Assembly: GCA_018985235.1 (NCBI GenBank)
Contig: JADGIG010000014.1
Coordinates: forward strand, 1-50,561
Direction of reading: 5' to 3'
Source of the DNA: Sanchytrium tribonematis
Taxonomy: Eukaryota; Sanchytriomycota; Sanchytriomycetes; Sanchytriales; Sanchytriaceae
Length of the DNA stretch: 50,561 nucleotides
Shown here piece by piece: positions 428-47,945 of this stretch (positions within the stretch are counted from its first letter, which is position 1; the number at the start of each line of letters is the position of its first letter). Below the pieces are notes generated by a model. It was not told the origin of the DNA. It ran no database searches and was given only the letters and a program-made list of their open reading frames with translations. Position numbers and translations under genes: made by a program.

Positions 428-1868
428 ATGCAAGTAGCAGCAGAATTTTTAGTTGATCCAGAAAATCTTAACATTTACAATGACAATGTTGTAGTGAATT
501 GTGTAGGAACAGGATGCGGTGCCACAAGTAAAAAGGAATTGTCCTACTTTTTTAAAACTACAAACTTTGGCCAGGACTTTGGTAATTTAGAAAAAGTACA
601 GGAGATTAAACATCTAGAAACTCAGAGTTTGATTTTGAATGAGACTGTGTACAAAATTCCAATTAAAGAGACAGAGCCAAACAGATTTCAATGGTTGCTT
701 ACAGGATTAAGATTGATTAATCCAGGTGAAGAAAAAATAGTTTACCTTGCTATTGTGACGATTATTGAGTTTTCTGATGCAATTGATAAAGTCCGAATTT
801 ATTGGGATCAAGCTTCATTATTGAAGCAGATTGGCTTTTTACATCATATTCAAGCGAAACCTAATACCTTTCAAACAGCTCCAAATTTTCAAACTCCGAT
901 CTTGGGGTCTTCACAAGCTGAGAAACTCATCGAAAATAAGGGGTTTAATACCTTTATCGAGAGTATTGTGGATGCTCAAGGAAAAGGCCAAAATTACAAA
1001 CAGCCGACTTCAATCGGCACCTGTTTAGACGACTCAGACTTGCAGCCTATTTTTGAGACTGGGAAAGCGGCCTCCCATAAATCCAGTATTGGTGGCAATG
1101 AAATGAGGTCTGCCCTGAAGGAATCTGAAGTATCCGAGAACAGATCAATAAGACAACTAAAAGAATCTCCATATAAACAAAAGGATTACATGAAAGCTTA
1201 CTTTGAAGGCACGGATAAGACAGACTGGCTTCCAAAAACCAAAATGATGGCTGAACCCGAAAAGTCCAAAGTTTTTGACGATGAACCAGTACCAGCGTTT
1301 TCCCATAAGCAAATCAATCCAAATAAGAATGCGTCTCATTTTTCCTTGACTGAAAATGAATATGAGAGCTCTCACAATCAAGCAACACTCAACAAAGCTA
1401 ATTCGGGTAGATCTCAAATATTTGATCAAGCGGATGAATTTAAACCAAGTACAAGAGTTTTGAATCCAGGTTGTACCGGGGGTAAGTCACAGATTCAATT
1501 CGGACTGGATGATGGCAGGCCAGGCAAACATGTTAATCCGGAAAAAAATCAATCTCATTTTTCTATAAGTGGTGACTTCTCTGATAAGTCTGCTTCCTTC
1601 AGAGAGCTTGGTTTAGCTGGAATAAAGTCATCCAAGGGTAATGAGTCTCATTTTGCCATATCTGATGCTGGAAGAACTGACCAGCCTGCTCCATCTCATC
1701 ATGGTCGTCGCTTGGTATATTTTATTCATTTAGTACAAGTCAAATCAATCCAGCTTCAGTCTCGGAGATGTCGATCCACTTGCGAAAGATTTCGAGAAAT
1801 TAAAAGTAAGACCCTCTTCGAAAGTTACGAATGTACCAGGAGGGCATTCATCGCTTAGACTTGGCTAA
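428..1868 (+). CDS. NTF2-like domain protein with Jupiter/HN1-type repeats; two exons split by a 19-nt intron
   Basis: Exons 428-1714 and 1734-1868 encode 473 residues. Residues 1-145 look like an NTF2-like (SnoaL/KSI fold) domain: an early WLLTG segment and the late motif VRIYWDQASLLKQIGFL are typical of fungal members. The C-terminal half is polar with recurring motifs: NPNKNASHFSL, NPEKNQSHFSI, GNESHFAI and PSTRVLNPGCTGGKSQ, the last resembling the P-S-S-R-V-L-x-P-G-G-x-S signature of Jupiter/HN1 (JPT) proteins. Reading through the intron gives an unrelated tail to 1858. Splicing it restores two more motif copies, NQSSFSLGD and RPSSKVTNVPGGHSS, then a TAA. The function of such proteins is unknown; Jupiter proteins bind microtubules, so a cytoskeletal role is only a guess. 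Confidence 0.75.
1715..1733 (+). other. 19-nt microintron (phase 0) in the NTF2/Jupiter-like gene
   Basis: The sequence is GTATATTTTATTCATTTAG, with GT-AG ends and an interior containing only one C and no G. Removing it joins codons TTG and TAC and shifts to the frame encoding the repeat motifs NQSSFSLGD and PSSKVTNVPGG, which match upstream repeats of the same protein. Retention changes frame and loses them. Confidence 0.8.
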
Positions 1869-1880
1869 TAAATTTATTTA

Positions 1881-4373
1881 CTACTGCTCGCACAATTCCT
1901 TAATTCTGGAATCTAGTTGGAGTATCAGCGGGTCAGTTGAATGGTATAAACCAGTAGAGAGCAATTCTTGCCTTTCATGACGAAGTCTGTCAATCTCAGG
2001 GTCGCCACTTGACTTTTTGGTGATTCCATTGAGTTCTTTTCGTAAAGATTCTAGCATTTTTAAATCGCTGTTATTTTTCTTTTGCTCTTCTTGAATTAGA
2101 TATCTCCACTTCAATTTCTCTACCATTTTTGAGTCAGTATCCAATTTTGACTGTTTGTCTTGCATGTTTGCAAGTTTAAAATTATCAAATTCAAATTGCA
2201 ATTTAATGCATCTTTCTTTAAAATGCTTTTTGACTTGTTCAGACTTTTGTAGTTTGAACTTAATATCGTTTAATTCACTCTGTAGTTTATGATTAGCGTC
2301 TTGAAGTTGAGTAGTTGTAGATTCAGCATTAATGTGTTTGATATGTATTAGTTTCTCATTAAGTTCATTGTATTTAGATTGAATCATATTATATTGAGAT
2401 TGGGCATCTTTTTGGGATTTCATAAGCTCTTTCACCTTTTCCTTGTATATCAAAAGTTCTTGTTCAGATTGTTTTAATTGCAGACTTTTTTCATTCTTTA
2501 TCTCCTCCATTTTCAAAACAACTTGCTGCTTTTCGAGTTCAAATTTGGCCAATAAAGCTTGTTTTTCCTTACTCATCGATGCCTCTCTTTTTTCAATATT
2601 CTCAGTCTTGAGCCTCAGTTCATCATCTAATGCTCGTAATTCGGTTAATTGTTGTTCAACTTCCTTGTAACTTGAAAAAAGCTTTTCAAGATTCCTTTTT
2701 AATGCTGGCTGATCCATCAACAAATGTTGAACGTCTTGTTTACTCTCATCTGTTTGGACAGCGATATTAGCAACCGGAGACTTGAATTTCAATGACAATT
2801 TTCTGTAAATTTCTTCATCCGTCTGGTGTGGCGTAAAGGTTGTGGCATCTATGGCTTTGAGTTTAGGAGACTCAGGTTGATTTTCAACATCAATACCAAA
2901 TTCTTTTAAGTAGCTAAGGTTATCTATTGGCTCACGCAGATCTTCCTTATGAATTTCAGGTATTTCTTTTTCTTGAAATTCTCCAAAATCTTCTAAAGCT
3001 ATCGTGGCCTTGAGTTGTCCTACATTTTCAATTAATATTGGGATGTCAATTAATTGCAAATCCCCCTGTCCATGAATTTCCGGAGTTCGTTCACTTTTGA
3101 GTACATTTCCTAAATTTATTTGACAGTTTCCCACCAGCGATTTCTTTTTGTATTGATCATGTGAAAAAACTTCAATATTCAATGGTTTTAGCAAAGCTTT
3201 TAAATCTGTAAAATTCATAACCATCTCGTAAGCACAGAATCCATTTTGAATAAAGGATTCAATGTTATTTTGTAGCATCACAGGCGGCCTAGTAGAAAAT
3301 TGATTTTTTGTGCCTAGAACGTAAAGCTCGTAATGAAACTCAACTGGTAATTTAATATTGGAATGTCCAATAATGCTTCTTAGATCGATACTGAGTCGAT
3401 ATTGATGAGCTTCATTTGATAAAGATGTGATTGAAGTAGATTTGGAAACAGGCACAGGAATTTTAGATACAGAGACATCCGAAATATCATTTTTAGTTGG
3501 AGATATAGATTTAGGTTTTCTGTTTTGAGAAATTTCATCCCTGGGGTATCCAATACATTCTAGTTTTATGTCGTAATTATTCAAAGAGATAATTTTCAGT
3601 GTTCCAGATAAAAAATCTATCAAGTGGAAACCTCTTTCCAACACTTTAATCGGTTTTACATTTTCATGTTTTACAACAAAAACCTTGAATTCCGTAGACT
3701 TCCAAAATTCTTGTAATTCACTCAAATGACCCTCAAATACAATTTGATGAATGCTAATTGGCTTATTCTTGTTTAAAATAATATGCTTATTCAATAGTTT
3801 CAATGCGACTGACTCTTTATCATCTTCAAAGTGACAAGATATTGTGGCTGTCATTCTGTAGACTTCTTTACCTTCGCCCACAACAATATTACCTTGATGT
3901 AAATTTAGATAAATGTTAGGACTCCAAATCATTAGGGCTTGGGTAATTAAACGCTCAGGACTCAGCTCATCCATCTCTAAGAATTGATCGGGCTGTTCCG
4001 GCACTAAACCGACTCCAAATCCGATTAAAACTTGTGGTCTAGGGGTATAATTGGTATTCATTAATGTGAACCACTTTTTACTTTCGGGTGGTAATTTGTT
4101 TTCAGCCCGTCGCATGTCAAGTAGAACAAATCCCACCAATTTCTTTGGCTTCTGATAGCAACTTAATTTGCAGTTTAAGCGATTTTGTTTTAAAAAATTA
4201 AATTGCTGCTCATTCAAGTAAAAAACTAATTCCGTGTCAATGGTCATTTCCGAAGTTGATACTAGTACTTCTGATGTTAATTTTTCATTGTTCAGTGTGC
4301 ACTCAAAATATATCGGAGATTTTGATGGTATGATGTGTTTAGCCTTATGCAAAACGATAAAAACCGAAAACAT
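1881..4373 (-). CDS. CEP120: CEP120-like centriolar C2-domain/coiled-coil protein
   Basis: The 830-residue protein has the CEP120 layout. An N-terminal C2-like domain (about residues 1-120, with VGFVLLDMRRAE and KKWFTLMN matching the family's conserved GYIVLDLR...KWY..L pattern) is followed by further beta-rich C2-like segments to about residue 470. A linker then leads to a long coiled coil (about 560-780). The C-terminal motif LRHERQELLSTGLY followed by LDSRIKEL closely resembles the CEP120 C-terminus. CEP120 acts at centrioles in duplication, elongation and basal-body maturation, so its presence implies a flagellum. The start ATG is at 4371-4373. The gene converges on the NTF2/Jupiter-like gene with only 12 bp between stops. 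Confidence 0.8.
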   Translation of the reverse strand: MFSVFIVLHKAKHIIPSKSPIYFECTLNNEKLTSEVLVSTSEMTIDTELVFYLNEQQFNFLKQNRLNCKLSCYQKPKKLVGFVLLDMRRAENKLPPESKKWFTLMNTNYTPRPQVLIGFGVGLVPEQPDQFLEMDELSPERLITQALMIWSPNIYLNLHQGNIVVGEGKEVYRMTATISCHFEDDKESVALKLLNKHIILNKNKPISIHQIVFEGHLSELQEFWKSTEFKVFVVKHENVKPIKVLERGFHLIDFLSGTLKIISLNNYDIKLECIGYPRDEISQNRKPKSISPTKNDISDVSVSKIPVPVSKSTSITSLSNEAHQYRLSIDLRSIIGHSNIKLPVEFHYELYVLGTKNQFSTRPPVMLQNNIESFIQNGFCAYEMVMNFTDLKALLKPLNIEVFSHDQYKKKSLVGNCQINLGNVLKSERTPEIHGQGDLQLIDIPILIENVGQLKATIALEDFGEFQEKEIPEIHKEDLREPIDNLSYLKEFGIDVENQPESPKLKAIDATTFTPHQTDEEIYRKLSLKFKSPVANIAVQTDESKQDVQHLLMDQPALKRNLEKLFSSYKEVEQQLTELRALDDELRLKTENIEKREASMSKEKQALLAKFELEKQQVVLKMEEIKNEKSLQLKQSEQELLIYKEKVKELMKSQKDAQSQYNMIQSKYNELNEKLIHIKHINAESTTTQLQDANHKLQSELNDIKFKLQKSEQVKKHFKERCIKLQFEFDNFKLANMQDKQSKLDTDSKMVEKLKWRYLIQEEQKKNNSDLKMLESLRKELNGITKKSSGDPEIDRLRHERQELLSTGLYHSTDPLILQLDSRIKELCEQ

Positions 4374-4418
4374 AAAAAATTGATTTCAAGGAGAAAAGAT
4401 GTTAAAATATACAGTTTA

Positions 4419-5414
4419 CTAAAAGTCGACAAATAAATCATGATAAATATCTTCTTGCACAGAGTGCTTGGTTTTTTCTTCAGGATAATGATCAAAATAA
4501 CTTGAATCACCAGGATGTTGTAGATGCGGAACAATCGGAGGTGTCAACTTCAAATTTTCAACATCCAGCCAATTAATTTGTGCAAAAAACAAATGATTTT
4601 TGATGTCATCAGTGCCATTTCTCAGGTTACCTATCCTATTAGTCAGATCGTGGGTCAAAAGTTGCCGTATTAAATCTTTTGCTGGAGAATGAAATTGAGC
4701 AGGAAAGATTAATTTAGCTCTGAGAATCTTTTCATAGATCCCAAATGGAGATTCATCATAAAAAGGAGGATACCCAACTAAAAATTCATAAATAAGTATA
4801 CCGAGAGCGTACCAATCTACGGCCTTAGTGTGTCCCTTACCTTTTATAATTTCTGGAGCAAGATATTCAGCAGTTCCACACAAGGTATATGTAACATCAC
4901 CTTCTGGTACAAATTTAGCAAATCCAAAGTCACAAAGCTTTAAATTTCCTTTTGAGTTTAATAATAAATTTTCTGGCTTAAGGTCTCGATAGATGCAGCC
5001 ATGATCATGAAGAAACCCCAAGGCGGTTGTAAGTTGAGCAGCATAAAAGACAGATGTGCTTAAGTTGAATCTTCCAGCTTTTCTTAAGTGACTAAATAAT
5101 TCCCCACCAGGAATATATTCCATAATCAGATATAAATTTGCGGATGATTGAAAATGATAGAGTAAATTCACAATTAAAGGATGCTTAAGTTTTTCTAAAA
5201 TCATTTTTTCATTTCTGATATGTTCTACTTGACGCAGTTTGACAATAGTCTTTTTTTGCAACACCTTCAATGCGTAATACTGAAATGGTGACAAGGTTGG
5301 TTTTGCAAATGCCGATGGTTTAATTCTGGTTAAATACACCCTTCCGAATGTACCCGTCCCGAGTGTATTTAAAAGTTCAAAATCGTGGTACGTAAAATCA
5401 TCCTCTTTAGTCAT
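4419..5414 (-). CDS. cAMP-dependent protein kinase catalytic subunit (AGC kinase)
   Basis: The 331-residue protein is a complete AGC kinase. The glycine loop is LGTGTFGRVYL, the ATP-binding lysine lies in YALKVLQKK, the catalytic loop is YRDLKPENLLL, and CDFGFAK is the DFG motif. The activation loop TLCGTAEYLAPE carries the PDK1-site threonine and the PKA-type GTAEYLAPE sequence. The tail ends in FVDF, the FxxF hydrophobic motif that docks into the PKA N-lobe. The size equals a minimal PKA-C with almost no N-terminal extension. It would phosphorylate Ser/Thr targets when released from a regulatory subunit, which is not in this window. It lies 29 bp downstream of the dehydrogenase gene on the same strand. 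PRKX is the nearest alternative. Confidence 0.9.
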   Translation of the reverse strand: MTKEDDFTYHDFELLNTLGTGTFGRVYLTRIKPSAFAKPTLSPFQYYALKVLQKKTIVKLRQVEHIRNEKMILEKLKHPLIVNLLYHFQSSANLYLIMEYIPGGELFSHLRKAGRFNLSTSVFYAAQLTTALGFLHDHGCIYRDLKPENLLLNSKGNLKLCDFGFAKFVPEGDVTYTLCGTAEYLAPEIIKGKGHTKAVDWYALGILIYEFLVGYPPFYDESPFGIYEKILRAKLIFPAQFHSPAKDLIRQLLTHDLTNRIGNLRNGTDDIKNHLFFAQINWLDVENLKLTPPIVPHLQHPGDSSYFDHYPEEKTKHSVQEDIYHDLFVDF

Positions 5415-5443
5415 TGTTTGACAAGGGGTAAAATCACTAAAAT

Positions 5444-6268
5444 TTATTTCATCTTTTTTCCAGCTTCATCATATAAAAAGAATCCTGCTTTTGTTTTTAA
5501 ACCCAATTTCTTTTCATTAACCAAGTCAATTAAAGTTTTAGGGGGTTTACACCATTCCTGTTGGTTCTCTTTGTACCACCCTTCACTAATAAACAATAAT
5601 GTATCAAGTCCAACAAAGTCAGCCAATGTGAAAGGACCCATGGGATAACCAGCACCGAGTTTCATGGCTTTGTCTACATCACTCATTGAGGCATCCCCAC
5701 GTTCCACCAGTTTAATGGCTTCAAGAATATATGGAACTAGTAGTCGATTAACAATGAATCCTGGAGTGTTTTTACAAATGACAGGAGCTTTCTCAATATT
5801 TTTGCAGTATTCCTTTAATTGCGCAACTTTTTTTTCTTGATTTGAAGCAGTGTAAATTATCTCAACTAATGGCATTTTAGTAACAGGGTTGAAGAAATGC
5901 AGACCTAGAGCCTCTTTTCCACTAGGGAAGCATTTCTTTACATCCAAGCTACTGGTATTTGTGCATATAACTGCTTTAGGAGCAACGTCAAAAACTTGTT
6001 GCAGTAATTTTCTTTTCAATTCAAGAACTTCAGGTACTGCTTCAACAACTAAATCGCAGTCTTTAAATGATTTGATGTCAGTAGATAGCGTCAAATTCTC
6101 ATGATCATATTTTGACTTGAATTTGTCGAGCATCTTTTGATTTGCGTCAACCAAAACTGTTTTGTATTTCGGCAAAGATACACGAGCAATTCCGCCTCCC
6201 ATTTGACCGGCTCCCAAAATACCTATTTTGGTAAAAGACATTGTGCGAGTCAGATTCAACAAACTCAT
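5444..6268 (-). CDS. 3-hydroxyacyl-CoA / 3-hydroxybutyryl-CoA dehydrogenase
   Basis: The 274-residue protein begins MSLLNLTRTMSF, a short basic hydroxylated leader that could be a mitochondrial presequence. The Rossmann motif GILGAGQMGGGIA follows, with VLVDA at the end of the second strand selecting NAD. Catalytic signatures are NTSSL, GLHFFNPV (catalytic His), TPGFIVNR and GAGYPMGPF. It should oxidise 3-hydroxyacyl-CoA to 3-ketoacyl-CoA with NAD+ in beta-oxidation or butyrate metabolism. The segment between VDA and the DLVVEAVPE motif is roughly 15-20 residues shorter than in typical members. There is no C-terminal peroxisomal SKL-type signal (the end is KKMK). Confidence 0.88.
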   Translation of the reverse strand: MSLLNLTRTMSFTKIGILGAGQMGGGIARVSLPKYKTVLVDANQKMLDKFKSKYDHENLTLSTDIKSFKDCDLVVEAVPEVLELKRKLLQQVFDVAPKAVICTNTSSLDVKKCFPSGKEALGLHFFNPVTKMPLVEIIYTASNQEKKVAQLKEYCKNIEKAPVICKNTPGFIVNRLLVPYILEAIKLVERGDASMSDVDKAMKLGAGYPMGPFTLADFVGLDTLLFISEGWYKENQQEWCKPPKTLIDLVNEKKLGLKTKAGFFLYDEAGKKMK

Positions 6269-6287
6269 AAACCGTTTGAAAAATTAT

Positions 6288-7517: not shown

Positions 7518-7621
7518 GGCCTATAAAAAATATTTTTTTTACTCAATACAAAAAGAATGTCCAGAGACCAGTAAGTAGCGCGTAAATACTCATAAAGTAT
7601 ACTTTTCTTCTCTTTCCACCT

Positions 7622-8632
7622 CTAGCAACATTCGGATCTTGATTTGCAAACATTATTGGCCGCAAGGCTCTGAGCTAAATAAATTTTGATTACTGTAAAA
7701 AAAGCTAAAGCTACAGATATGTATCCTCTCAAAGTCCATCCCAATATACCTTTGAATCCCAAAAGTGTTATAAAGCCATTGATTACAGCACCAACAAACA
7801 TGTACCCGATAAGAGCAGCCAGATCAAGCCATGATATGTAAGAGCCAACATTATTTAAATAAAGAAATAAAGATAGAACCAATAATTGTAATATATATAC
7901 GAATATGGTGAAAGAAGCGGTAATTCCTAATATGTCTGGATGAAAGGTTGACTTGCTTTTTGAACCATCTGCGATTGCTTTTGAGCCATCTAGACCAGTT
8001 TGTAAACCTACAAGCAATATATATGTTATAAAAGTCATCAAAGGAATATAAAGATCAAATTCACTACCAACTCTATTTCCATTTGGAATTTTGATTTGCT
8101 TGAAGGGAAATAAAATATTGGCTAGCCTGTAGACTACATACTGATGATTAACTCTGAAGTAAACTCTCAAAACATCAATATATCTTGAAGAATTTTTAAA
8201 ATATTGATTTGAAGCGTTCATAGCCATATTGAAAGTACCCAGACCCGCAGCTAAAGTATTACCATTAAAAGGAGATTGTCCAGAATCCTGATTATATTGA
8301 TTTGGATAGGAACTGGGCTGAGGGGCGTAATTTTGTGGATATTGCTGTTGTTGCATATTTGGTGATGCATTTGGATTTGCTTGATAATTGTTGTATTGTG
8401 GCTGATTCGATTCAGGTATAGGCATATTTGGCGGGTAACTAGTATCCGGTTGATAATTATATTGCTGAGGTGGTTGTTGCTGTAAATTTGGGGAATTTTG
8501 ATAGCTAGGAGGATATTGTGCAGGTGGCGGAGATTGGCGAGGCTGCTGCTTTTGAGGTCTTGCCTGTCCAGCATTTGGCCGCTGCTGAGTCTGTGCGTAA
8601 GGCTGTTGGTAATAATTTTGTTCGTTCGACAT
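7622..8632 (-). CDS. YIF1: YIF1 family ER-Golgi membrane protein
   Basis: The first ATG at 8630-8632 gives 336 residues; the frame extends to a TTG further upstream, which I do not use. Residues 1-125 are a Q/N/P/Y-rich cytosolic tail. The domain from about 140 carries family hallmarks: YFRVNHQYVVYRLANILFPF and DLYIPLMTFITYILL, then about five hydrophobic segments. Yif1 binds Yip1 and Ypt/Rab GTPases and acts in COPII vesicle fusion between ER and Golgi. The protein ends SRSECC, a possible lipid-modified CC end, although family members are normally anchored by their TM segments. The sequence just upstream of the ATG contains a 17-mer shared with the SEC22 gene. Confidence 0.88.
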   Translation of the reverse strand: MSNEQNYYQQPYAQTQQRPNAGQARPQKQQPRQSPPPAQYPPSYQNSPNLQQQPPQQYNYQPDTSYPPNMPIPESNQPQYNNYQANPNASPNMQQQQYPQNYAPQPSSYPNQYNQDSGQSPFNGNTLAAGLGTFNMAMNASNQYFKNSSRYIDVLRVYFRVNHQYVVYRLANILFPFKQIKIPNGNRVGSEFDLYIPLMTFITYILLVGLQTGLDGSKAIADGSKSKSTFHPDILGITASFTIFVYILQLLVLSLFLYLNNVGSYISWLDLAALIGYMFVGAVINGFITLLGFKGILGWTLRGYISVALAFFTVIKIYLAQSLAANNVCKSRSECC

Positions 8633-8636
8633 CAAT

Positions 8637-8653
8637 AAAAGTTTCAAAAATTA
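8637..8653 (-). promoter_or_regulatory. 17-nt start-proximal element of YIF1 (identical copy at SEC22)
   Basis: In gene orientation the sequence TAATTTTTGAAACTTTT lies 4 bp upstream of the YIF1 ATG. The identical 17-mer lies just upstream of the SEC22 ATG. A 14/17 version precedes the dehydrogenase ATG (6270-6286). The core AATTTTTGAAAC directly abuts the ATG at 42990-43001. It could be an initiator/transcription start or 5'-UTR element. Confidence 0.35.
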
Positions 8654-8783
8654 TTTTTTATTCTAATATATTGTTCATATCACAATTACAATGTAAAGAT
8701 GTCGCATTTTCAGACGTGTCTATTGTTGCTTAAAAATGATGAAACCAACTTTTAAAGCAAAGTAATGTGAAACAATAATTAAA

Positions 8784-9341: not shown

Positions 9342-9358
9342 GTAAATTCAAAATTTTA

Positions 9359-12300
9359 TTACTGACCTGTTCCTTTTTCCTTGACACTATCAGGATTAAC
9401 ATTGACTCTTTGCTGACTTTCAGTAATATAACTAATGTCGTCCCACTAAATAAATAAAAAAGTACAGGGTGGCGATATAGACCTTGCTTTAATCTCTTTT
9501 GGTCTAAATAATGAGCAGTAAAACCAATTGTTCTTCCTAAAACGAATAAACCATTCAAAGTACCAATTTTAATATATTCTTCTGCTTCTTCCTTTGAAAA
9601 AGCACCACTATGTCTTAGTAAATCAACAAATAAAACACCAATTGCACCATCCACATTTAAAATTAAATTGTCTTTCTTTTGGGTTGTGATTTCCTCAACC
9701 TTTAATGCGTAATCTAAAATAGGAGTGGCTGGAAAATGAGATTTTGCGTAATTTTTGACCAATTCTACTCTCATGTCTGGATTAGTTTTGCTCTTAATTT
9801 TATGTCCGATTCCCAAAATGAGCTTATTTTCTTTTCTCATTTCATCCACAAATTGTCTCGGAGTTTTGTTGCTATCGTATGCTTGGCTAAAAAGTAATGC
9901 AGCACCGTCTAAAGCACCACCAAATCTCTCTCCAATGGTCAACATTCCACTCACAACACTAGATATCAAATCTTTTCCCGCTCTAGCAGTCACAATGGTG
10001 TTATGGGCACCACTGACGGCTGGTCCGTGGTCCGCAGTTAGCATCAAAACCATTTCGATGAAGTGACAAGCATATTCTGGTAATCTTCTCTTAAACCACA
10101 GTAAGCTTACGACTCCTCCAACTCCCAAATTTTGATTAAACACTTGACTTATAGGCATTCCGGCGTATAAAAGTTCCTCTCCTCTATCATCGGTAATGGT
10201 GCTGATAAAATTTGCAGGCTTACGAATGAGTCCCAATTGTTGAGCCCAAGCGTAATCAATCGGAATCTTGGGCACTTCTGGCTCCTTCATAACATGAATG
10301 GTTCCGTTTTCAACAAGTTTGTTGTAAACCTCACTCAATAAATCGGGTAATTCTTCAAAAGTATTTGGAACGGAAATCCCACTTTCTTTCATTTTTTGAT
10401 TTTTATAATTAGCAGTTTCTTCCTTATTATTTGCATGAGCGCCAGCATGACCAAATTGCACATCAGTTGTCAGCAGATCAGCCACAGTACCAATACACCA
10501 ACCAACTATTGGTTTTGTAATAGTTTTAGATTTAACAGCTTCCATGACTCTGTATTCTTCTTTACCACCGACTTCACCCAGAAGAACAATCAGTTTGACA
10601 TGAGGGTCCTGCTCATACCGGAGGATGTGATCCAATAAAGTACTTCCGGGATACCTATCACCTCCGATAGCAATTCCTTCATAAACACCATTTGTGTGAA
10701 GACTGATCATATTGTTCAATTCATTACTCATACCTCCACTCTTGCTCACATAAGCAACACTACCAGGACGATAGAGCTTACTGCTTACAATATTATCCAT
10801 CATACCACCAGTATTTCCAATTTTGAAACATCCTGGTTTTATGCCTCCAACGGTTGCAGGCCCGATAATTAAAACATTTTTAGCTTTTGCCACATGTAGC
10901 AAGTGTCTCGTTCTTCTTTCAGGTACACCTTCAGCGATAATACAAATGGTTTTGATCTGATTGAAGTTCATAATATCCATTGTCGAAGAAAAGACACTTC
11001 TGCAGCTGGTAAAATTAATGATTGAATTAACCTCTGGGTGTGCCTCCAAGGCCTTTAACAAAGAATCATAAACTGGGATCATAATGTCTTGAGTACCCCA
11101 GTAATACTTCATATTTGAATCACCACCAAAGGGATAAATCATAGCAGCCACACTTGGGGTTTGTCGTTTACACATGTAATCAAAATCCAACATACCTTGA
11201 ACAGCTTTTGGTTGCATACCCCAAATAAAGCATCTGGTGGAATTAGTGAATGTAGGCGAAAAAGAAGCGGAAGGAGGCGGTGTTGTGACTCGCTCGATAG
11301 AAGAGTTTGTCGGACCTCTTGGGGTAGAGGTTGGTTTGGCCTTTGCCTGTTCAGTCCATTCTTCTTTCACATCTCCTTTTAATGCCATAGGTACTATGCT
11401 CGTTACATGGGTTTCGGGACCGTAAACATGCATATCTAAATTTAATTCGCTTGCGACTCTTTTGATATTTTGTAGTCCTTCTTGATAATTTGGTCCTGCA
11501 CGTCTTACAAAAATTCTGGTTTTATGTTGTTGTAACTGAATTTGGAATTCTTGCAAAGCTTTAATAATACCCTTGAAGGTGCTGGCGACATTTGTGAAAT
11601 TTGCGATACCACCACCAATCAAAAGAATTTTTCCATCTTTATGTTCATACTTTGTCATGAGCTGTAAAATAGTTTTAGCGTATAAATAAGTTTGTTCAGT
11701 AGATGGAGCACCAGAGTATTCTCCGTAATTTGCTAACTCATTAGCAAATCCATAATTGGCAATAGCATCTGCATATGCAACTGATGCACCTCCACCAGCA
11801 ACCATAGTCCAAACTTGCCCATGTGGGTTCAAAATTGTTAATTTTAGAGAAGCGCCGGTTTTAGCGTCTAGTTCTTGAATAAAAGCTTCTTCTTTACTCA
11901 ATACTCGTCCAAAAGGAGCAGGGTACTCAATTGAAGCAGATAAAGCTTGCTGAATTTTGTCACCCGTCTCGAACTCTGCGGTTTGGTCAAGTTTTGCTGC
12001 CAAATCCATCATAGAAATTGTATAAGGCTTGACGTTTCCACCGTTAGTGTCTAAAATGGCTTTGAGTTGCGGATTATTACTAATTTCTGATTGCTCTAGC
12101 AATACTAAAGGATTAATTTCCAAATAAGTGAAATGCAAATCAACATAAACTGCATAAAGACGGGAAATGAATTCAGTAAGAACCACCTTGTGTGCTGAAG
12201 GGACATTGGCAAGTAGTTTCGAAATATCTGTTGCCTTGAGAGTTTCCAATGCAAAAACATCTACTTTAATTGCTTTTTCTTCAACATCCCCGATGTCAAC

Positions 12301-17963: not shown

Positions 17964-19461
17964 TTACGCTAAAAATTTGGTGGTGCTGTCGTTGCTGTCT
18001 GTATCACTTGACTCCTCATGAAAATTTGCCACATCTCTACGACCTCTTTCCAAATCGACAAAATGGTATAAAATTGGGATAGCAATAAGAAGCATTACTA
18101 TGAGAGCAAAGAACGAATTTCTGAAATCTCCACTTAAATCTCTTATCAATGCAGTCAAAAGGGGACCAATCCAAGCAGATCCCTTATCTGTAATTTCGTA
18201 CAAGCTGAAAAATTCAGCTTCTTTGCCTTTTGGAATTAATTCGGATAATATCGCTCTAGAGAGAGCTTGCCATGCACCTTTATAAATAAAAATTACCAAG
18301 AGTAAAGCCAAAAATTATACAAACTGGATAAATTTCCCATACTTGATGCAAGAAAAACGTCTTCGACCATTTTCCTAAGACAGCGTATATGGGGACTAGC
18401 AAAACTATAGATAGAACAATCAATAGAGTCTTTTTTGAGCTCCAATTCATGAACTTTTGCAGCCGTAACCAAAATACATTGCCAATACCTGCAATGAATG
18501 GAATTAAAATAGCATTAATTAATAAATGTTTGTCGGGCACACCCAATTCGCTTCGTGCAAATAAGATGGCGACAGTTGTCATAGTTTGTGCAGCATCAGC
18601 ATATAATGCAAAAGCAAGCAAAAAATAAAACGTAGTCGGAATTTTCCTACAATTTTTAACACTAATGTACAATCTTTCCCAAGAGAATGCAACATATACA
18701 TACGTTACATAAATTTTTCTTGTCAATTTTCTCACTAAGCTGAGATCCGCGGTACTACCACCAATTTTTCGCTGCATAGTTGGAGGTAAGGGCTCACCAG
18801 GATATGATTTCAAATTTACAAACGCTAAAGATCCGAATCCTAACCACCAAATTCCGGTTAAAATTAAGCTTAATTGCTTTCCATAGATTGGGCCTGTAAA
18901 CATATTAATTGTGGCAGCAATTATTAAACACAAAACACCGCCAACATAACCCCAGGCAAATCCATAGGATGAGAATTGAGAAGAGATATGATCCTCATCT
19001 AGTAAAGAAACTGGAGAACTAATTTCATCTAAGTTGGTTTCTCGGGTTTGAATTTCAGCTATGTGCTCCCTTACAATAAACGGCAGGTAAGCATTGTAAA
19101 CAACCAGACTAACACCGTATGCTACATTGGATAAAACAATAAAAACTGCGATAAATTGTATATTCCTTGATAATCCGATTAAAATACAGGACAGACCACC
19201 AATCCATGTTGTAAACACCAAAATGGCCTTCTTATTACCACCATAGTCTGCTAAACCTCCACTACTGATACAAAAAAGTGCCTGCATAAACACCGAGAAC
19301 GAGTTAATGTACATGGCAGTTGAATCATCGCTCAAAGATTCAACAATTAAAGGAAGAAAGAAAGTCATTGCCACGGTAGCATAAACTGTGTTAGCGAAGT
19401 CGTATAAATACCAGGCATAGACACTTCTCTTTGATTGAAGCGGTCCATTATGTGATTCCAT
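17964..19461 (-). CDS. ATG22: Atg22-like major facilitator transporter; two exons split by a 19-nt intron
   Basis: Exons 18297-19461 and 17964-18277 (minus strand) encode 492 residues with about eleven or twelve hydrophobic segments. The N-terminal KRSVYAWYLYDFANTVYA and the later ALSRAILSELIPKGKEAEFF...LYEITDKGSAWIGP are strong Atg22/UMF1 signatures. Yeast Atg22 exports amino acids from the vacuole after autophagy; the same role is likely but not shown. Without splicing the protein stops after GFTLGNFYL. Splicing joins GFTL to GAWQALSRA, the conserved loop. The C-terminal cytosolic tail is Ser/Asp-rich. Confidence 0.9.
18278..18296 (-). other. 19-nt microintron (phase 1) in the Atg22-like gene
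   Basis: In gene orientation the intron is GTAATTTTTATTTATAAAG. It interrupts a Gly codon (G/GT) within the conserved LGAWQALSRA segment. It is the only one of the six introns ending in AAG. Retention terminates translation at a TAA inside the intron. Confidence 0.93.
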
Positions 19462-24132: not shown

Positions 24133-25577
24133 TTACAAGTAATCATTTGAAAACTCTAACTCAGGAAATGAGGCATTTATATCCAGAACTTCTTCCTTTA
24201 TAGGTGAGTCGGTAGATTTTTTCCTCTTGTCCAGAATCGGCGAATCAGCAGATAATTCCTCATTAGAAGTATTTATAAGCGGTGGTATTGGTATAGCGAA
24301 GTAGTGGTTCTCGGAGTACTCCCCGTCAAATTTTTTCATAGTGACGGGTGGAAAAATTAAATCTACAAGATCACCTACATCGCCGTAGGAAGACTTAAAA
24401 TAGCTTTGTTCTAATTTCAAGGTTCCCAGGTGATCTACTACGAATATACGACTGTTAGGAATATCCACGCTTCTGTAAGATATTGCGTCCTATATTAGAT
24501 AAGTAATACAGTGTTTCTATTCCCAAATCCAGCGTAAAAAGGATTTCTAATTTTAAATACTCTCTTGATGTCTTTTAGGCAAGCCATTTTAAAAATTTCT
24601 GGACGCCTTTGTATTATTTCCCTTCGGAAAGCTGCATAAAGACGATCCGGAGATAGAAAAACGGGTCCTTCCGGTAATTTGTACGGTCCTTGCTCCACCT
24701 TCTCTAAATAATTTCTAGTGTAAGGAGCTTGGCCAATGGCTCTGGAAGTGAGATATAACATTTTGTACCCATTTTTATAAATTTTATGATATAGTCCACA
24801 AATACTAGCATGTGTCCAATCCTTTCCAACAAAAGCAAATAAGTGACCCAGAGCATCACTTTTTGTGATTGTTCCATCTATATCACTTATAACAACATTT
24901 ACGTTATGTTCCCATAAATAAATGTTGGCTGTGCACTTTTCTTCTCCATTGATGTAATAAATTAAATCATTTTTGCCTTTTTTCAATTCCAAGGCTTTCA
25001 ATTGTTCGGAAGACATCCTTAGGCTTTTAGGAGAATAACTCATCATAGAAACAGATTGAATTGGCATTAGTTCTGGAGAGCCGGAATTGGATCTTGAAAA
25101 TGTATTTGATGTGGACGGTTCTCGACTGAGTGGATTTTTCAAAGATATTCTATCCTCTTCACTTTTGTACCCTTGCTCATGACGGGTGGATCTAAAATCG
25201 TCCTCTGGTGGAGACTGATAACCTTCTGATCTTGTATCTAAATTTAAATCAATACTTCCTTCGTCAGAAGACATGGCATCTTGGTCAACCTCATCTAAAA
25301 CAAAATAACCTTCACCAACATCACCTACGCGCATCTGAGTGTCAATAATTTTTCCATTCACTTTTAAGTGTACAATTTGGTCTTGAGTTCTCAGTATAGA
25401 CAATTTTCCGAATCTCACGTGAAAAGGCGAACAACTTAAAGATCCGTCCAGGTGTTCGATAACAAGTATATCAATAGCACCGCTTAAAGTTGATGGATTT
25501 ATCTCGGAATATACATCTTTTATCCATGATACAGCACTGCTTGCATTTTTGTAAGCGTAAGAAGAGATTGATTGCAT
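24133..25577 (-). CDS. Lipin/Pah1 phosphatidate phosphatase; two exons split by a 20-nt intron
   Basis: Exons 24510-25577 and 24133-24489 (minus strand) encode 474 residues. The first ATG (25575-25577) gives MQSISSYAYKN; the frame is open further to a TTG that I do not use. The N-LIP domain (residues 1-95) has PSTLSGAIDILVIE and SPFHVRFGKL. A short polar linker leads to the C-LIP HAD domain with the catalytic DIDGTITKSD at about residue 230, YLTSRAIGQA, GPVFLSPD and PFYAGFGNR. Splicing joins GFGNRNT to DAISYRSVDIP, the conserved lipin sequence. Lipin makes diacylglycerol from phosphatidate at the ER and nuclear membrane. It is short compared with animal or yeast lipins (850-900 residues), the linker being reduced. 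Confidence 0.95.
24490..24509 (-). other. 20-nt microintron (phase 0) in lipin
   Basis: In gene orientation the intron is GTATTACTTATCTAATATAG. Its removal links ...GNRNT and DAISYR, reproducing the lipin consensus GNR.TDA.SYR. Without splicing the protein ends after NTVLLI. Confidence 0.93.
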
Positions 25578-33364: not shown

Positions 33365-33400
33365 AATTTATTTTTCATTTGTTTTATAAAACAAGGAGAT

Positions 33401-33935
33401 ATGCCAGTTTATCATTCTCAATTCGATGGAACAAAATTTCAAAGTATTGGAGGAATGGCTTTACTTCCATTTCAATCTAAATTTAAAGGACCAGCTGCAC
33501 CTACTACGGAAGAAGATATTGTTGAGGAATCGGTCATTTCTTTTAGAATTAATTGCTTTTTTAAGCATTTCGACATTAAAAGTTCGGCTGATAGAACTTT
33601 GATTTATGGTATTCTATTTGTTTCCGAATGTTTGAGTAAATTGAAGCCAAATATGTCTCAACAAGAAGCTTACAAGACTTTGCAAAGTTTTGCTGTCAGT
33701 GGATTTGCACTTCCTGGCGATGCTGGTATTTGTAATTAATTCAGGATTCCCTTTAAATGCATTATATCCCACACCTGCTAATAGAGGTGAATACGATCAA
33801 TTAAAAGCGTATATTTTACAATTTAGACAGGAACTTGCGCAAAGATTTAGCGAGAGGGCATTCGTCAACAATCAGCCTTCCAAATGGTGGATGGCATTTC
33901 AGAAAAAGAAGTTTTTAAATAAAACTCTATCTTGA
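33401..33935 (+). CDS. ARPC3: ARPC3 (Arp2/3 complex p21 subunit); two exons split by a 19-nt intron
   Basis: Exons 33401-33725 and 33745-33935 encode 171 residues, close to the usual 175-180. MPVYHSQFDG at the start, CFFKHFDIKSSADRTLIYG in the middle, FALPGDAG|FPLNALYPTPANRGEYD across the splice, and KPSKWW-like PSKWWMAFQKKKFLNK at the end are diagnostic. ARPC3 is a core subunit of the Arp2/3 complex, which nucleates branched actin, so the organism probably makes branched-actin structures (amoeboid movement, endocytic patches). The last 9 nt overlap the end of PIG-A on the other strand. Confidence 0.96.
33726..33744 (+). other. 19-nt microintron (phase 1) in ARPC3
   Basis: The intron is GTATTTGTAATTAATTCAG. 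It lies in the Gly codon of PGDAG/FPLNALYP; splicing restores this conserved ARPC3 block exactly. Retention stops translation at TAA within the intron after GICN. Confidence 0.95.
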
Positions 33936-41900: not shown

Positions 41901-42971
41901 CAGAAAAATCCAAATCTAAATGCACTAGTGCACCACTTTCTAAATGACGAGAAATTTACCGAGTACATCATGGTTGGTATTAAGTTGCAACAGAATTTAT
42001 TAGACAAGGTCAAAATTAAAATCAATATCCAAGATCTATTGTCTAAAAATTTAGTAGCCTCATCAGAGCCAGCGAAGCAACTTATCAAGTCAGTTCAAGG
42101 TGCAATTGTGTCTGATGGCATCGCTGCTAGCATCGAGTTAGATTTGCCAATTAGTAGTAATATTAACTCCATTACTGCAGTTATTCATAAAGGTGGAGAT
42201 TCTATTTTCAATATTGCCGTAGATGCACAATTACCATCAGTCAATGCCCATTTAAAACCAATTTTTCCTGCAATGCAATTTCATATGAGTCAAATTTACA
42301 GAAGAATGAAACTGGGTGTTAATTTAGTGTCGGATATTTCAATAGGTGGTATTTTATTATCGAATGAATATAAGCTGAATATCCTAGAAGATATTTTTGT
42401 AGATAAGTTACCAGATGTAAGTTATGTAGAGGGTATACTGCCATGTCGAATGCACACGCTGAACCCTATAAAATTAATTAAAGATCCTGGAATTGGTACT
42501 GATGTTTTCTTTAAAGCAAGCACTTTACCATTTCCAGTCGATCTCGATTTGGGAACTCTCTACTTCGATGTTTTAGACTACAATGTATATAATGATACGC
42601 TGAAGTATGAAGTTACTATGGATGATGAAAGAGCGCATATTAACGAGCTGGTTTATCCAGTCAATCCAGCTGCTATCGGAAACTATAGCAAAGTTGATTA
42701 TACTCGAAATTGTATTCATAATGACCATATCAAATATTACAATGTAAATACTGGTCTGTTGTTCTTTATTAGATGGGTGAATAATCCTCTTAAAGCTGTT
42801 GATGGATTGTTTAAATTAGGACGCAAAAAATTATTACGAAATTTTAAAATTACAAGGAATGGCGAAGAAATGAAATGGCTCGGTGAAATGATGTTAAAAA
42901 CAAATGTATATGTTCACGTCAAACTCGACCATGTACCTGATTTTGAAAAGAATCCAAGGCCAGATCGATAA
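35919..42971 (+). CDS. Giant lumenal/secreted repeat protein, LEA2/DUF3712 (Tag1)-like
   Basis: An uninterrupted 2350-residue ORF starts with a signal-peptide-like leader (MLLIISAIVLILLSGYGVAA). I see no later TM segment. The rest is mostly beta strand in a divergent tandem repeat of about 110-150 residues. Each unit opens with a Leu-Pro-rich segment (LPKLPAIQLP near 888, VPSLTLPAIK near 1151, LPQLSLPTL near 1281, LPSLPNIDL near 1660, PKLPAIKLPSL near 1784, LPQITLPKI near 1912). Alternating hydrophobic strands follow, and the unit closes with an I.(I/L)G....(L/F) element (GIQDLHIGEIEDLES, QIVVGNINSFE, MKIGTSRDF, LQFGHSRDSF, IILGNLNNLE). Strand pattern and unit size resemble LEA2-like/DUF3712 domains of fungal Tag1-type proteins. 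A BPI/SMP or repeating-beta-groove lipid-transfer protein is an alternative. Two CxxC motifs occur (CPTC, CTVC). Confidence 0.75.
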   Translation: MLLIISAIVLILLSGYGVAAPMIIRDILGNGDIFVYPDHVSLDLRPQETNVYFKGEFFITRNNIDAYIHETFYRIYYRNQVALGLTLSDMQTYTDKRTNLDFHTQLLVFNASLIDQLLREAIKGENADVIMQGYMGVSVFKVPMYSKVFVERYLLPKETNLRQQLQDFMDGTLPPGSLDPTLKQYPKPVIPPLNTPKINGLTLYRKSNQIGINIKFEWKNDFIELHVAEIRIPLLLYNVNFGGLYLENLRLTNGLVKGNVNIGLYLLTGDEIKKAFQHAFKMLIKELTIQVGVVGPLRFVAEESVVWIANATKSLNASLTIDIPRVTERFGISLPSAPKAMLDLKHMSLEIKIRTVKKSIDLGLELHLPSKFPKLPKVESLIGVALKLGYIKDLIQIEVGKLHIVNQFVQLGTRINFFDQPRELRALVDRFMGKKSDQTIHAHDMEFFPSCPTCKQFDNIDFSIDPPEINFSQYVKFGKSILKNTNLGLKIYSLSVIQKERSFFIDVDFQLDLLLPIDAFIGYLAVTLQINHDDFLTLSIENLRWSKTNRHKLSLEITFHKSSQLSLLIPHLLDYLNNKNSIPDIITISSIKIGESKQMFSSLFSEIDIDIKISELLESISLPQLDLNLDNVLEPTFLTLIARDTIKLGLKSIFNNPLDFDLHVHLDPIKASIDNSIFFNIAELNLSHNLELEAEISFKNAKAIIQPILEDFLNHKFNRMISLSLGSITFLENAKVDINIPELSLSSGLINLSHMNLNNPISNFKPDNIDINHHGNSIKAALGVDLTINVPIVVDISSIQVGVRLQKNKFLKLSTGAIKIHQGLNEINLPLELQFNECTVCETEVNQLTQNLLSGNLIETIIGIQDLHIGEIEDLESISVDLFVSQNIHLPKLPAIQLPNISPKNLAISVHDKTINAKGSLSLDLNWIKAHFQRISLYVTLNNQDLVRILIHHLDVNRGVNFEISLEFFDASKEVLQLYNYLTVGYNEINIGVHTISLDQIYILRSINAAQPVGRFVEPAIIHLDEVLNKPLPALPLESVDIVSLDQWIVLDILAKIPIDVKIDASLALQVALNDHSLLNLKLSLSGHNMIRIGAKIMLFDIAENMKTIGSIISNVLSSRDLSGSISIKQIVVGNINSFERISVDIPLSIIKVPSLTLPAIKMSGLSVKNVEKDVEVKLHLPIKLPKLPFKIDVLLVQLHIFDSAFVTLSLNPIFKNGVDLTILAHFEKYDNPEINTMINSFLETKNLDLQVGISKIALKTNKGLYKISNKIPIDIHQKMTLPQLSLPTLELKSLNIHTDENKLIAQIENPLPVHLDYFQISLGHNQNLVTISAVLSSKIDIFLEFNNAGADEMKILLEKFDFVQIYGMKIGTSRDFHQFNLDIHFPLHILPKFDFPIPSLPSIKISPENVQLETIQDHGLMAKLRIQAALPIALNLNSQNIKVKLGLGNPMILAEIDSINITGDEVFVSLKLFMDNQYRSQIAEEISKLLHKEQSHLFVSELKIDSIMLFSSSRFEVPIHLPIDESKLGSSLNDLTSQHAETLSNITINHVKAVVNPDNSLTTSLSINFPFDFDIKVAINYLQVGLRINEQSLLLAEIQPIKIQKAMELDVKLKLNSWAYSKIEKVGIEYLKIGYSDEDYISLFEDVKLDVNIDLKNIKLPSLPNIDLSIKADSANLNIDQNISGLAKLKIPNIFLSIPFIRVSLGALMPSIFIQLSVITSELIEVNFLIDGHADDNELLAMRQLVDKFLNGNVDVFLDELQFGHSRDSFVSLKIGQQIKTKAPKLPAIKLPSLVVDPNNVKASISEKITLKTSINLDVPVTFNVKNIELEVFINERLANIHIDAIKADGVAEISVIVEPHNVQESTQLQLNEILNNIIQKTPLNADVYIDRIILGNLNNLELIHLKLPNLDLPQITLPKIEPILNLDKANINLIGDNQLFLTAKAGVSVGFSIDAQLDKLGLSVGILDNPFLEARISGDVKDVADVEVNLSLQKNPNLNALVHHFLNDEKFTEYIMVGIKLQQNLLDKVKIKINIQDLLSKNLVASSEPAKQLIKSVQGAIVSDGIAASIELDLPISSNINSITAVIHKGGDSIFNIAVDAQLPSVNAHLKPIFPAMQFHMSQIYRRMKLGVNLVSDISIGGILLSNEYKLNILEDIFVDKLPDVSYVEGILPCRMHTLNPIKLIKDPGIGTDVFFKASTLPFPVDLDLGTLYFDVLDYNVYNDTLKYEVTMDDERAHINELVYPVNPAAIGNYSKVDYTRNCIHNDHIKYYNVNTGLLFFIRWVNNPLKAVDGLFKLGRKKLLRNFKITRNGEEMKWLGEMMLKTNVYVHVKLDHVPDFEKNPRPDR

Positions 42972-44630: not shown

Positions 44631-44673
44631 GGAGAAATAAATTCAAACACAATTTATCTATAAATATATTTAC

Positions 44674-45801: not shown

Positions 45802-46036
45802 TTTGAAATTTAAAGATATTTCTACTATTTATAGAATATAAGAGTTGCATGTGATGACTATGTCAGTGGAATTCTACTTCAGGATCCATAGGAAATTCAA
45901 CTTTAAAATCTCAATCCATAAATCGTAAGGACGAGGATCCATAGATGAATACCCCGCGTCTTATGTCCCTGAAATCGTGCTGGCTAAAAAAGGTCGAGAG
46001 GTGAGTTGATAATGGATTGTTGAGACACATGATTTA
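45802..46036. other. Intergenic gap (235 bp) with possible non-coding RNA signals
   Basis: No ORF is supported here. TACTTCAGGATC (45875-45886) equals the box-A core of yeast U3 snoRNA as I remember it. GTGATGA (45851-45857) and CTGA (45969-45972) resemble boxes C and D. CCCTGAAATCGTGCTGGC (45967-45984) is vaguely like U3 box B. However AGGATCCATAG occurs twice (45881 and 45934) and the base after GGATC is C where U3 pairs with 18S using A. I give this low weight. Confidence 0.2.
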
Positions 46037-47945
46037 TTATGACGACTTGTCAAGGTATGGAAGATATTTGCCAAATTTTAGATTAGGAGTATCAAGGTCA
46101 ATTGCTTCTAGATTTTGATTGCAGCGAGTGGTAAAGGTCTCTATCAAGTCATTTGCAACGCCGCTTGCGAATTTATCCCAGTTTTCATATACCTTTAATC
46201 TAGACGATATATTTTTGCAATTATTGAGAGCTTCAATAATTTCTTTCTTTAAATCACTTTTGGGAATACTTTTTACCGATTCTACCTTTTTTTGTAAATG
46301 ATTGTATTTCAAAGATGGAGGAGAAGCAGCTATACCAAGTACTCTATATTGCTGTTGGAATCTATGAGCCATAAAATCATCAGTATAGATGTCCAACTGA
46401 AACGGTACAGAGAGATTAATATTGCAATAAAGTAGCAATTTTGTAAAAGCTCCATAATATATTTGATGAAATTGTACAAAAAGACCTTCGAATGAGTGCA
46501 GCTCTTGGACTTCTAGAGAGACTTTTGGCAGATCAGAGATACTTCCACAAAAATATCGAATATGATCAGATTGGAAATCTTTGAGAGATTTCTTTTTCTC
46601 AAGTGTTTTGAGAAAAAATCTACTAACATACTCCATTTGAACAGAAAAAGCCAAAATATCATGCTTTTCTATCAATTCAAGATAATATCCTAAGTTTAAC
46701 CATTGAAAACAAGCAAAGTTGGACATAACATCAACCGATATTTTTAAGTATGGTGTATTATGCTTCTAAGTAAGTATTAAGTACATCACGCAGCATTTTG
46801 CTAAGTAAATCATCATATTGATCAAATGGAATTTTTTTGATGGACTCAATATATCCATTTAACATTCGTCTATATCTTCCCGAATTATGAGCAGAGCTAT
46901 GGATTAAATCCCCAAATACAGAATTAAGACCTGGTAAAAGGTTGGATAACAAATCATGAAGATGCATCGGAGGCCATGGGATTTCTGCACTACCCAATTT
47001 CTGAATTTCCTCTTTTGAGTGAGTGGCTATCGTATGACTTATTTCTCTCAACTGAAGTAGAAAAAAATCGTTTATCGGATGTCCCTGAATCTTTTTGTCT
47101 CTCATCAAAACATGGTTTCTTGTGCTAAATAAAAAGTCTAAAGGAATCTGGCTTTTCTCAATTCCATCGATATCAATGTCGTATGTATTGAATAACTTCA
47201 CCCCCACTTCAGAAAAGTAGCAGGATCCTATAGAATAAAAGAAATTTCTCCAATATAAATTAAGGCCAAACTCTGCTGGCAAAGAGTAGCTTGAATGAAT
47301 ATCATTATAAAACTTGTACATAAAATTGTAAATAGGCTCAATTCTATTATTAGGAATTAAATGAAATGGTCTGGGTGGAGAAAGTAGCATTTCTGGCAAT
47401 TCGTTTAGATTTACATCGAACGGGATTTCTTTAGATTTACATTTAGTGCTAGTGATTTTGGAAGCCCACAAGAAATGATGAGCTGAAGATGGAAAATTAT
47501 CAGGCTTGATTTTTAATTGAAATTGTGGAGCCGATTCTCCTTTCATCATCTGTAAAATATCCAGAGCTAGATTATCCAGCTTCAAATGATCGTTATAAGC
47601 ATTTCCGTGCTTACATATAATGCTGCAATCATGACTCACGATCTCCTCCTCTTCATACAAACCATATTTTCTTAATTCTTGAACAACTGCTGTAAGGTGT
47701 TGGTGCGGATAGTAGCAAGTCGTCAATGACTGACCGCAAAGAAAGTGGAGAAAAAGACAGATTCCATTATCTTGATTCAGTATAGGCGCCTCATGGTCTG
47801 CCAATGCTGTAAAATAATCCATTTTAAAATCCATCATTTCGATAGCTGCAATGCTGTCTAGCAACTTAATTGTATTTGAAATGGAAAACGTTTCGAGAGA
47901 GTCACAATACGAATTAAACTCTTCCGTACATTCTATCCAATTCAT
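46037..47945 (-). CDS. NAA35: Naa35/Mak10, auxiliary subunit of NatC acetyltransferase; two exons split by a 19-nt intron
   Basis: Exons 46785-47945 and 46037-46765 (minus strand) encode 629 residues. IAAIEMMDFKMDY near the start is the Mak10 signature (AIE.MD.KMD), with CLFLHFLCGQSLTTCYYPH after it. The C-terminal exon restores NTPYLKISVDV...NLGYYLELIEKHD, and the AHRFQQQYRVLGIAASPPSL segment matches the Mak10 YEHRF..F......PPP region. Without splicing the protein ends NTYLEA. Naa35 anchors Naa30 to the ribosome for N-terminal acetylation of ML/MI/MF/MW starts. It begins 26 bp downstream of the TAF7 stop on the same strand. Confidence 0.92.
46766..46784 (-). other. 19-nt microintron (phase 0) in NAA35
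   Basis: In gene orientation the intron is GTACTTAATACTTACTTAG. Removing it joins ...MLRD to KHNTPYLKIS and connects two ORFs that are both recognisable Mak10 halves, with no start codon needed for the second. Confidence 0.92.

Follow-up and report, generated by a model that had tools for sequence, protein, structure and literature searches.

Tiny introns of a single size arose in unrelated lineages: ciliates, rhizarian parasites and algal nucleomorphs. Here, we describe putative introns of 19 or 20 nucleotides (nt) inside Fungi, found in a stretch of 50,561 nt of the Sanchytrium tribonematis genome (contig JADGIG010000014.1, positions 1 to 50,561; GC content 35.1%), referred to as the window in the following, and compare them with the closest systems. 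In the mikrocytids Mikrocytos mackini and Paramikrocytos canceri (Rhizaria), 217 of 224 introns measure 16 bp and seven measure 17 bp (PMC10245619). These resemble the sanchytrid introns in being numerous, nearly of one length, conserved in sequence and located in a parasite genome, but they are 3 nt shorter and belong to an unrelated lineage. Stentor coeruleus has introns of 15-16 nt; the branch adenosine (branch A) is mostly found at position 10 in those of 15 nt and at position 11 in those of 16 nt (PMC9505925). Here the likeness extends to the GT..AG ends, the branch A located 6 nt from the intron end, and the unchanged U1 ACUUACCU and U2 GUAGUA sequences. In contrast, branch A of Stentor lies 4 nt nearer to the 5' site, its branch region lacks a strong consensus, and Stentor is a giant free-living ciliate, unlike the parasite studied here. 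Nucleomorph introns of the chlorarachniophyte Bigelowiella, 18-21 nt long as described in PMC10245619, fall into the same size range and likewise number in the hundreds, but reside in a remnant algal nucleus and not in the nucleus of the cell. An initial annotation of the window had listed precedents for such short introns but omitted the mikrocytid norm of 16-17 nt (PMC10245619).

Among opisthokonts, the nearest case that we found is the animal Dicyema, with a length of 26.2 +/- 1.9 nt for 16 introns (PMC2222250) and, in a genome assembly, a mean intron length of 38 nt at 6.2 introns per gene (PMC6736024). Dicyema is likewise a parasite with short and uniform introns, which are, however, 6-7 nt longer than those described here. 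Yarrowia introns are also longer than 19-20 nt. Yarrowia, Trichomonas and Giardia are intron-poor and keep a fixed branch-to-AG distance (PMC2483917); they share with the sanchytrid a strong branch consensus at a fixed distance and the absence of a polypyrimidine tract but, unlike it, have few introns. The accessible text of a fungal survey terms the introns of Cryptococcus (mean 63 bp) relatively short and leaves sanchytrids unmentioned (PMC8476143), and that of two microsporidian genome papers reports sparse and generally short introns, without a 19-20-nt norm; short single introns may exist in microsporidia. In the accessible literature on short introns, sanchytrids and aphelids, we found no report of comparable introns in fungi or other opisthokonts, and to this extent the earlier remark that no opisthokont genome with a 19-20-nt norm was known still holds.

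Tiny introns of fixed size are a known phenomenon, and what is new here is the fungal lineage; there is a good chance that the 19-20 nt of sanchytrids are extreme for opisthokonts. Judged from sequence, we consider it highly probable (about 0.93) that the segments are U2-type spliceosomal introns of the sanchytrid nuclear genome, where introns would normally measure 19 nt and more rarely 20 nt. A case inside Fungi with a Stentor-like distance from branch to end stands beside the spliceosomes that are known best and raises the question of which of their components define the lower limit.

Putative introns of the window and their protein junctions

Six segments had been called introns in the initial annotation, two on the plus and four on the minus strand, and every coordinate and length proved exact (coordinates throughout are positions of the window, and intron letters are read on the coding strand). 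All six begin with GTA and end with AG (TAG four times, CAG and AAG once each). Excision of each segment reconnects open frames with the residues that had been given for the junction, while retention leads to a stop 4 to 47 codons downstream of the site. These were the only introns that had been seen in the window, but at least one more is present. A scan with the motif derived from the genome returned 13 strings, 7 of which are read as introns, namely the six segments and one overlooked in the YIF1 gene. The window carries at least seven introns, and GT..AG ends are present in all seven.

The overlooked intron, 7675..7693 on the minus strand (19 nt, GTAATCAAAATTTATTTAG, phase 0), separates exon 1, within 7694-8650, from exon 2 at ~7543-7674; the Pfam YIF1 match runs across the junction to 244/245 when it is spliced and ends at 200/245 in the unspliced open reading frame (ORF). 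Similar extensions were found for three further genes. In the gene for an Atg22-like vacuole effluxer, splicing of the intron 18278..18296 (minus strand, 19 nt, GTAATTTTTATTTATAAAG, phase 1; exon 1 within 18297-19467, exon 2 ~17964-18277) takes the ATG22 match from 402/482 to 481/482. The lipin gene contains the intron 24490..24509 (minus strand, 20 nt, GTATTACTTATCTAATATAG, phase 0), with exon 1 within 24510-25592 and exon 2 at ~24133-24489, and its LNS2 match is complete across the junction (226/226) as opposed to 178/226 unspliced. For ARPC3, with the intron 33726..33744 on the plus strand (19 nt, GTATTTGTAATTAATTCAG, phase 1; exon 1 within 33365-33725, exon 2 ~33745-33935), the P21-Arc match rises from 135 bits, to 112/173, to 225.2 bits, to 173/173. 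The junction in ATP-citrate lyase (ACLY), at 9446..9465 on the minus strand (20 nt, GTACTTTTTTATTTATTTAG, phase 0; exon 1 within 9466-12807, exon 2 ~9359-9445), reads GLYRHP/WDDISY after splicing and agrees with six other fungal ACLY proteins in the alignment.

The protein evidence differs for the remaining two introns. Removal of 46766..46784 (minus strand, 19 nt, GTACTTAATACTTACTTAG, phase 0; exon 1 within 46785-48044, exon 2 46037-46765) connects frames of 420 and 242 codons in a gene that had been labelled Naa35. The joining of the frames was confirmed, but the label finds less backing, as the Pfam Mak10 match stays at 18 bits against a cut-off of 24 and stops short of the junction. In the first gene, the intron 1715..1733 on the plus strand (19 nt, GTATATTTTATTCATTTAG, phase 0; exon 1 within ORF 425-1714, exon 2 ~1734-1868) is supported by the restored frame and the motif GTA..YTNAY..AG; a Pfam search with its protein returned no family at E <= 1, and the Jupiter-type repeats ascribed to it could not be confirmed.

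In total, we searched 20 spliced segments, drawn from the 39 introns collected below, against Pfam, and the family stretch spans the junction in 16 of them, including Rad51, NAD kinase, protein kinases, DHHC transferase, Helicase_C, LNS2, ARPC3, Atg22 and YIF1. The other four segments do not count as support: the match begins right at the junction in the first, stops short of it in the second and spans it below the cut-off in the third, and the fourth has no match. A fragment of a DDE_Tnp_4 gene on another contig (L013, G000:C100, minus strand) also contains a 19-nt intron of the usual form, at 5055-5073 counted on that strand, and its Pfam match crosses the junction. The window further contains one unbroken ORF of 2358 codons at 35895-42971 on the plus strand, to which no Pfam family was assigned.

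Length, probable branch site and number of putative introns in the assembly

Lengths were counted in a non-random sample of about 306 kb of the same assembly, consisting of the window and pieces of other contigs; the whole assembly searched comprises 6.34 Mb in 311 contigs and is probably incomplete. The first length count (12 to 60 nt) took in 10 kb of mitochondrial DNA (L021) and the count of 32 seeds described below took in a 600-base piece (L035), both of which are excluded from the later counts. Among the GTA..AG pairs that join long frames and whose retention breaks the frame, 31 measured 19 nt and 10 measured 20 nt, compared to 0-14 at the other lengths, and nine decoy end pairs counted in the same way gave no peak at 19-20 nt. 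With the full YTNAY branch motif required in addition, 24 pairs were found at 19 nt, six at 20 nt and two at 25 nt, while the remaining lengths from 14 to 30 nt were empty. The motif without the frame test occurred 44 times at 19 nt and 15 times at 20 nt, as well as 3 times at 18 nt and 4 times at 21 nt, while the 27 lengths between 12 and 40 nt apart from 19 and 20 nt yielded 0-13 occurrences each (mean ~6). GTA and the branch motif are found in 30 of the 66 frame-joining GT..AG pairs of 19-20 nt, versus 6 of 680 pairs of other lengths from 14 to 60 nt (Fisher p = 2.5e-29). A narrow range of 19 and 20 nt is the norm here, save for a few unproven other lengths. The frame-preserving lengths of 18 and 21 nt are at background level in the frame-blind count, which may reflect selection or geometry.

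Other donors and longer introns were considered as well. GTG, GTT, GTC and GCA gave 0 or 1 frame-joining candidates at 19-20 nt. For the ranges 31-60, 61-120 and 121-300 nt, 4, 18 and 53 pairs with the same 3' motif were counted; these numbers lie inside the decoy ranges of 0-8, 2-24 and 14-117, exceeding some decoys (AC and CG ends) and staying under others. In the whole 6.34 Mb, the 19-mer pattern had 897 matches and its reversed control 441. The assembly thus contains several hundred introns, from about 450 (897 minus 441) to about 950 (extrapolated from the frame-blind count).

The branch site was analyzed in 32 seeds of 19-20 nt that had been chosen by GTA, HAG, length and frame only, with no branch site asked for. 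T at -8 and A at -6 were each present in 31 of the 32 seeds and together in 30, including all 24 seeds of 19 nt; under looser frame criteria, the pair was found in 35 of 39. T-8 and A-6 appear to be part of a branch site YTNAY at -9 to -5, which keeps a fixed place and could pair with GUAGUA of U2. A second branch position farther from the end was considered and rejected. Eleven frame-joining 19-20-mers agree with such a position, but every one of them also has T-8 and A-6, and 9 carry the full branch motif; we therefore regard these as second matches within the same introns.

Base composition and phase were tabulated for 39 collected introns that had been selected for GTA, the branch motif at -6 and HAG; the set derives from 38 rows, from which one (L009, plus strand) was removed by hand, while two window introns that had missed the threshold were added by hand. 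Thirty are 19 nt and nine are 20 nt long, phases 0, 1 and 2 are represented 16, 8 and 15 times, and the interior is 88% A+T. Position +4 is A in 17 and T in 16 introns. At +5, 29 introns have T and none has G, and T occupies -3 in 31. The general layout is GUA, 7 or 8 A/U-rich nt, YUNAY, one nt and HAG, with the additional base of the 20-mers sitting between the 5' site and the branch. Branch A occupies position 14, or 15 in the 20-mers; it lies 13-14 nt away from the 5' G and 6 nt away from the end of the intron. The exon flanks show little base preference (G at -1 in 15/39). With respect to location, 30 of the 34 introns with readable ends lie in the 3' half of the coding region (quartiles 2/2/12/18), taking the farthest in-frame ATG as the start and pooling two-intron genes with the others. 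Intron-poor genomes are usually described with a 5' intron bias, the opposite of this 3' crowding.

Relatives, splicing machinery and alternative explanations

Proteins of relatives were taken from public EukProt and ENA records. The closest database proteins to the window ACLY, P0002 (EukProt, on a NODE contig), P0003 and P0004 (both ENA), share 68-73% identity with it and drop out of the alignment directly behind GLYRHP, at which point the remaining six fungi proceed with WDDIS. The ARPC3 relatives P0122, P0124 and P0178 run off at GDAG, and the lipin relatives P0242, P0243 and P0244 at GNRNT (GNRNT/V). Overall, 9 of the 10 ORFs from relatives are interrupted at these three sites in an intron-compatible manner, and their deviant C-termini look like ORF read-through of a conserved short intron. 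We decoded intron lengths of up to 40 nt that are compatible with the read-through peptide and, at the same time, with the conserved exon that follows, whose allowed residues were chosen by the analyst, in the case of lipin after the peptides had been seen. As a control, the window ACLY gave 20 nt as the sole solution from 10 to 40 nt. P0124 decodes to 19 nt and P0244 to 20 nt, with no other length fitting, whereas P0122 decodes to 22 nt and P0243 to 19 nt with further solutions (40 nt, and 36 nt and more, respectively) unless the branch motif is required. P0003 and P0004 both decode to 19 nt; 27 nt and more also fit unless the motif is required, and 32 and 36-40 nt fit even with it. In P0002, P0178 and P0242, a stop inside the putative intron renders the length unreadable. 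These records are best explained by intron positions that are common to the relatives, with readable lengths of 19, 19, 19, 19, 20 and 22 nt. In an ACLY tree, which was built without a non-fungal outgroup and gives no placement beyond this branch, the window and the three relatives are on one side of a branch with support of 100/100, versus the other fungi. Among the ACLY matches, the relatives are followed first by a record that bears the name Oesophagostomum dentatum (51% over 62% of the query) and then by Blastocladiomycota (Allomyces, Paraphysoderma, Coelomomyces; 60-61%).

Rfam searches of the assembly identified small nuclear RNA (snRNA) genes for U2 (115.9 bits), U6 (61.8 bits) and U1 (43.7 bits). 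The 5' end of U1, AUACUUACCU, is complete and unchanged, and GUAGUA(U) of U2 is intact. In addition, a Prp8 U6-snRNA-binding domain is located within an open frame of 2239 aa. The top U2AF large-subunit-like match, G000:C121:26219-26806 on the minus strand, covers model positions 300-507 of 510 in a frame of 432 aa and could be U2AF65 or another RRM protein.

Several observations weigh against spliceosomal introns of uniform size. The branch motif was preselected in the 39 collected introns, and two 25-mers and four scattered pairs of other lengths carry it too, which makes rare longer introns possible. U1 remains below its Rfam cut-off (43.7 vs 69.5 bits), and the absence of G at +5 in all 39 introns is a poor fit to U1, with GUA always present by selection. 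In the searched 6.34 Mb, which are probably a partial assembly in which an empty search is not proof of absence, no U5 was found, U4 appeared only at E ~0.8, none of 20 U2AF65 matches exceeded the cut-off (best 51.6 vs 310.3 bits), and SF1-HH and CWC25 had no match; these missing matches say little and are not read as losses. Finally, the tenth relative, P0236 (ARPC3, ENA, 66% identity over 56% of the query), was rejected as a case of the shared intron, as it ends with YS* after GDAG and fits no GTA..AG intron; its end is perhaps a contig end or another break. Nevertheless, the spliceosomal interpretation put forward in the initial annotation is supported by the restoration of frames, the fixed branch consensus in unselected seeds, the snRNAs together with Prp8, the Pfam families across 16 of 20 junctions and the positions shared with relatives.

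Among the alternatives, ordinary introns of mixed length, of which frame joining would detect only the shortest class, are highly unlikely. Since the background of frame joining grows with length, a few longer introns could hide in it, and the motif in 6 of 680 pairs of other lengths is in line with this; however, the counts from 31 to 300 nt are within the decoy range, and the Pfam matches of the window judged clearly cut at an ORF end (ATG22, LNS2, P21-Arc and YIF1) are each explained by a 19-20-nt intron. Programmed ribosomal bypassing or frameshifting, in which the segments would be kept in the mRNA and hopped over by the ribosome, is scarcely credible, although the segments are short and uniform and the genomic sequence is compatible with retention in the mRNA. 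A ribosome would need neither GTA and AG nor a fixed branch site, all of them spliceosomal signals; moreover, U1, U2, U6 and Prp8 are encoded in the genome, introns of every phase are found (16/8/15), and a strong base preference is lacking in the exon flanks.

It also appears extremely improbable that the segments are small insertions introduced by assembly or amplification, which break the frames. Sanchytrid genomes do stem from isolated sporangia whose DNA underwent whole-genome amplification prior to assembly (PMC8371127), but such errors carry neither a consensus nor a preferred length, and in three genes the EukProt and ENA records of relatives are interrupted at identical codons. The chance that non-spliceosomal introns of the IRE1/RtcB (HAC1-like) type are involved is practically negligible. 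Known non-spliceosomal mRNA introns can have similar sizes; those of the IRE1/RtcB type, however, require paired stem-loops in which the cleavage loops are conserved, and they are limited to very few genes, whereas many unrelated genes share a U2-type consensus here.

For the favoured U2-type introns, the following course of splicing can be proposed. U1 would meet a short 5' site, GUA and often GUAA or GUAU, GUAGUA of U2 would pair to YUNAY, and the second step would take the AG 4-5 nt past branch A, leaving no space for a polypyrimidine tract. The fixed spacing would offset the weak single sites, with the intron being recognised as one unit; given the poor match to U1 at +5, much of the specificity is probably conferred by this spacing. 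We infer excision, branch use and recognition as one unit from the genomic sequence. The scant room left by such introns, remarked on initially, marks no new limit. Nothing here exceeds the presumed capacity of the spliceosome, because the 15-nt introns of Stentor place branch A at an equal distance from the end and 4 nt closer to the intron start (PMC9505925). A more far-reaching idea, possible but on the whole doubtful, is ruler splicing across the fungal phylum. Only a word of 19 or 20 nt (22 in one relative) would be accepted, branch A would be locked at 6 nt, the U2AF65/SF1 polypyrimidine-branch step would be lost or reworked, and lengths divisible by three would be shut out. If this were true, every retention event would shift the frame, and sanchytrids would be the first opisthokonts with length-gated splicing.

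Sanchytrid gene models and the mitochondrial contig

Sanchytriomycota, a phylum of little-known fungi that infect algae, are the sister group to Blastocladiomycota, and the genomes described for Amoeboradix and Sanchytrium comprise 10.5 and 11.2 Mb with a GC content of 36.3 and 34.6% and an N50 of 13.4 and 11.9 kb, respectively (PMC8371127). Sanchytrid proteins were predicted by TransDecoder from SPAdes genomic contigs (PMC8371127). Because these proteomes are contig ORFs and 9 of 10 relatives' ORFs break, conclusions drawn for the phylum on gene losses, unusual C-termini and the number of proteins need to be rechecked. Many published protein predictions may be broken, and a re-annotation of the phylum with a minimum intron length of about 15 nt is called for.

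The mitochondrial genomes of Amoeboradix and Sanchytrium were reported to measure 27,055 and 24,749 bp, with a GC content of 30.7 and 25.9%, respectively (PMC8371127). In the assembly analyzed here, the mitochondrial contig (L021, G000:C311) is 24,986 bp long. Its end piece (L035, G000:C311:24387-24986) terminates in 16 consecutive C and shows no overlap with the contig start; the contig may be linear, or its end may be an assembly artefact. The first 10 kb (positions 1-10000) have a GC content of 25.5% and contain bacterial-type rRNA genes for the small subunit (3163-4403) and the large subunit (4479-7530) as well as six tRNAs, and a group II intron domain is located at 6931-7007 inside the large-subunit gene.

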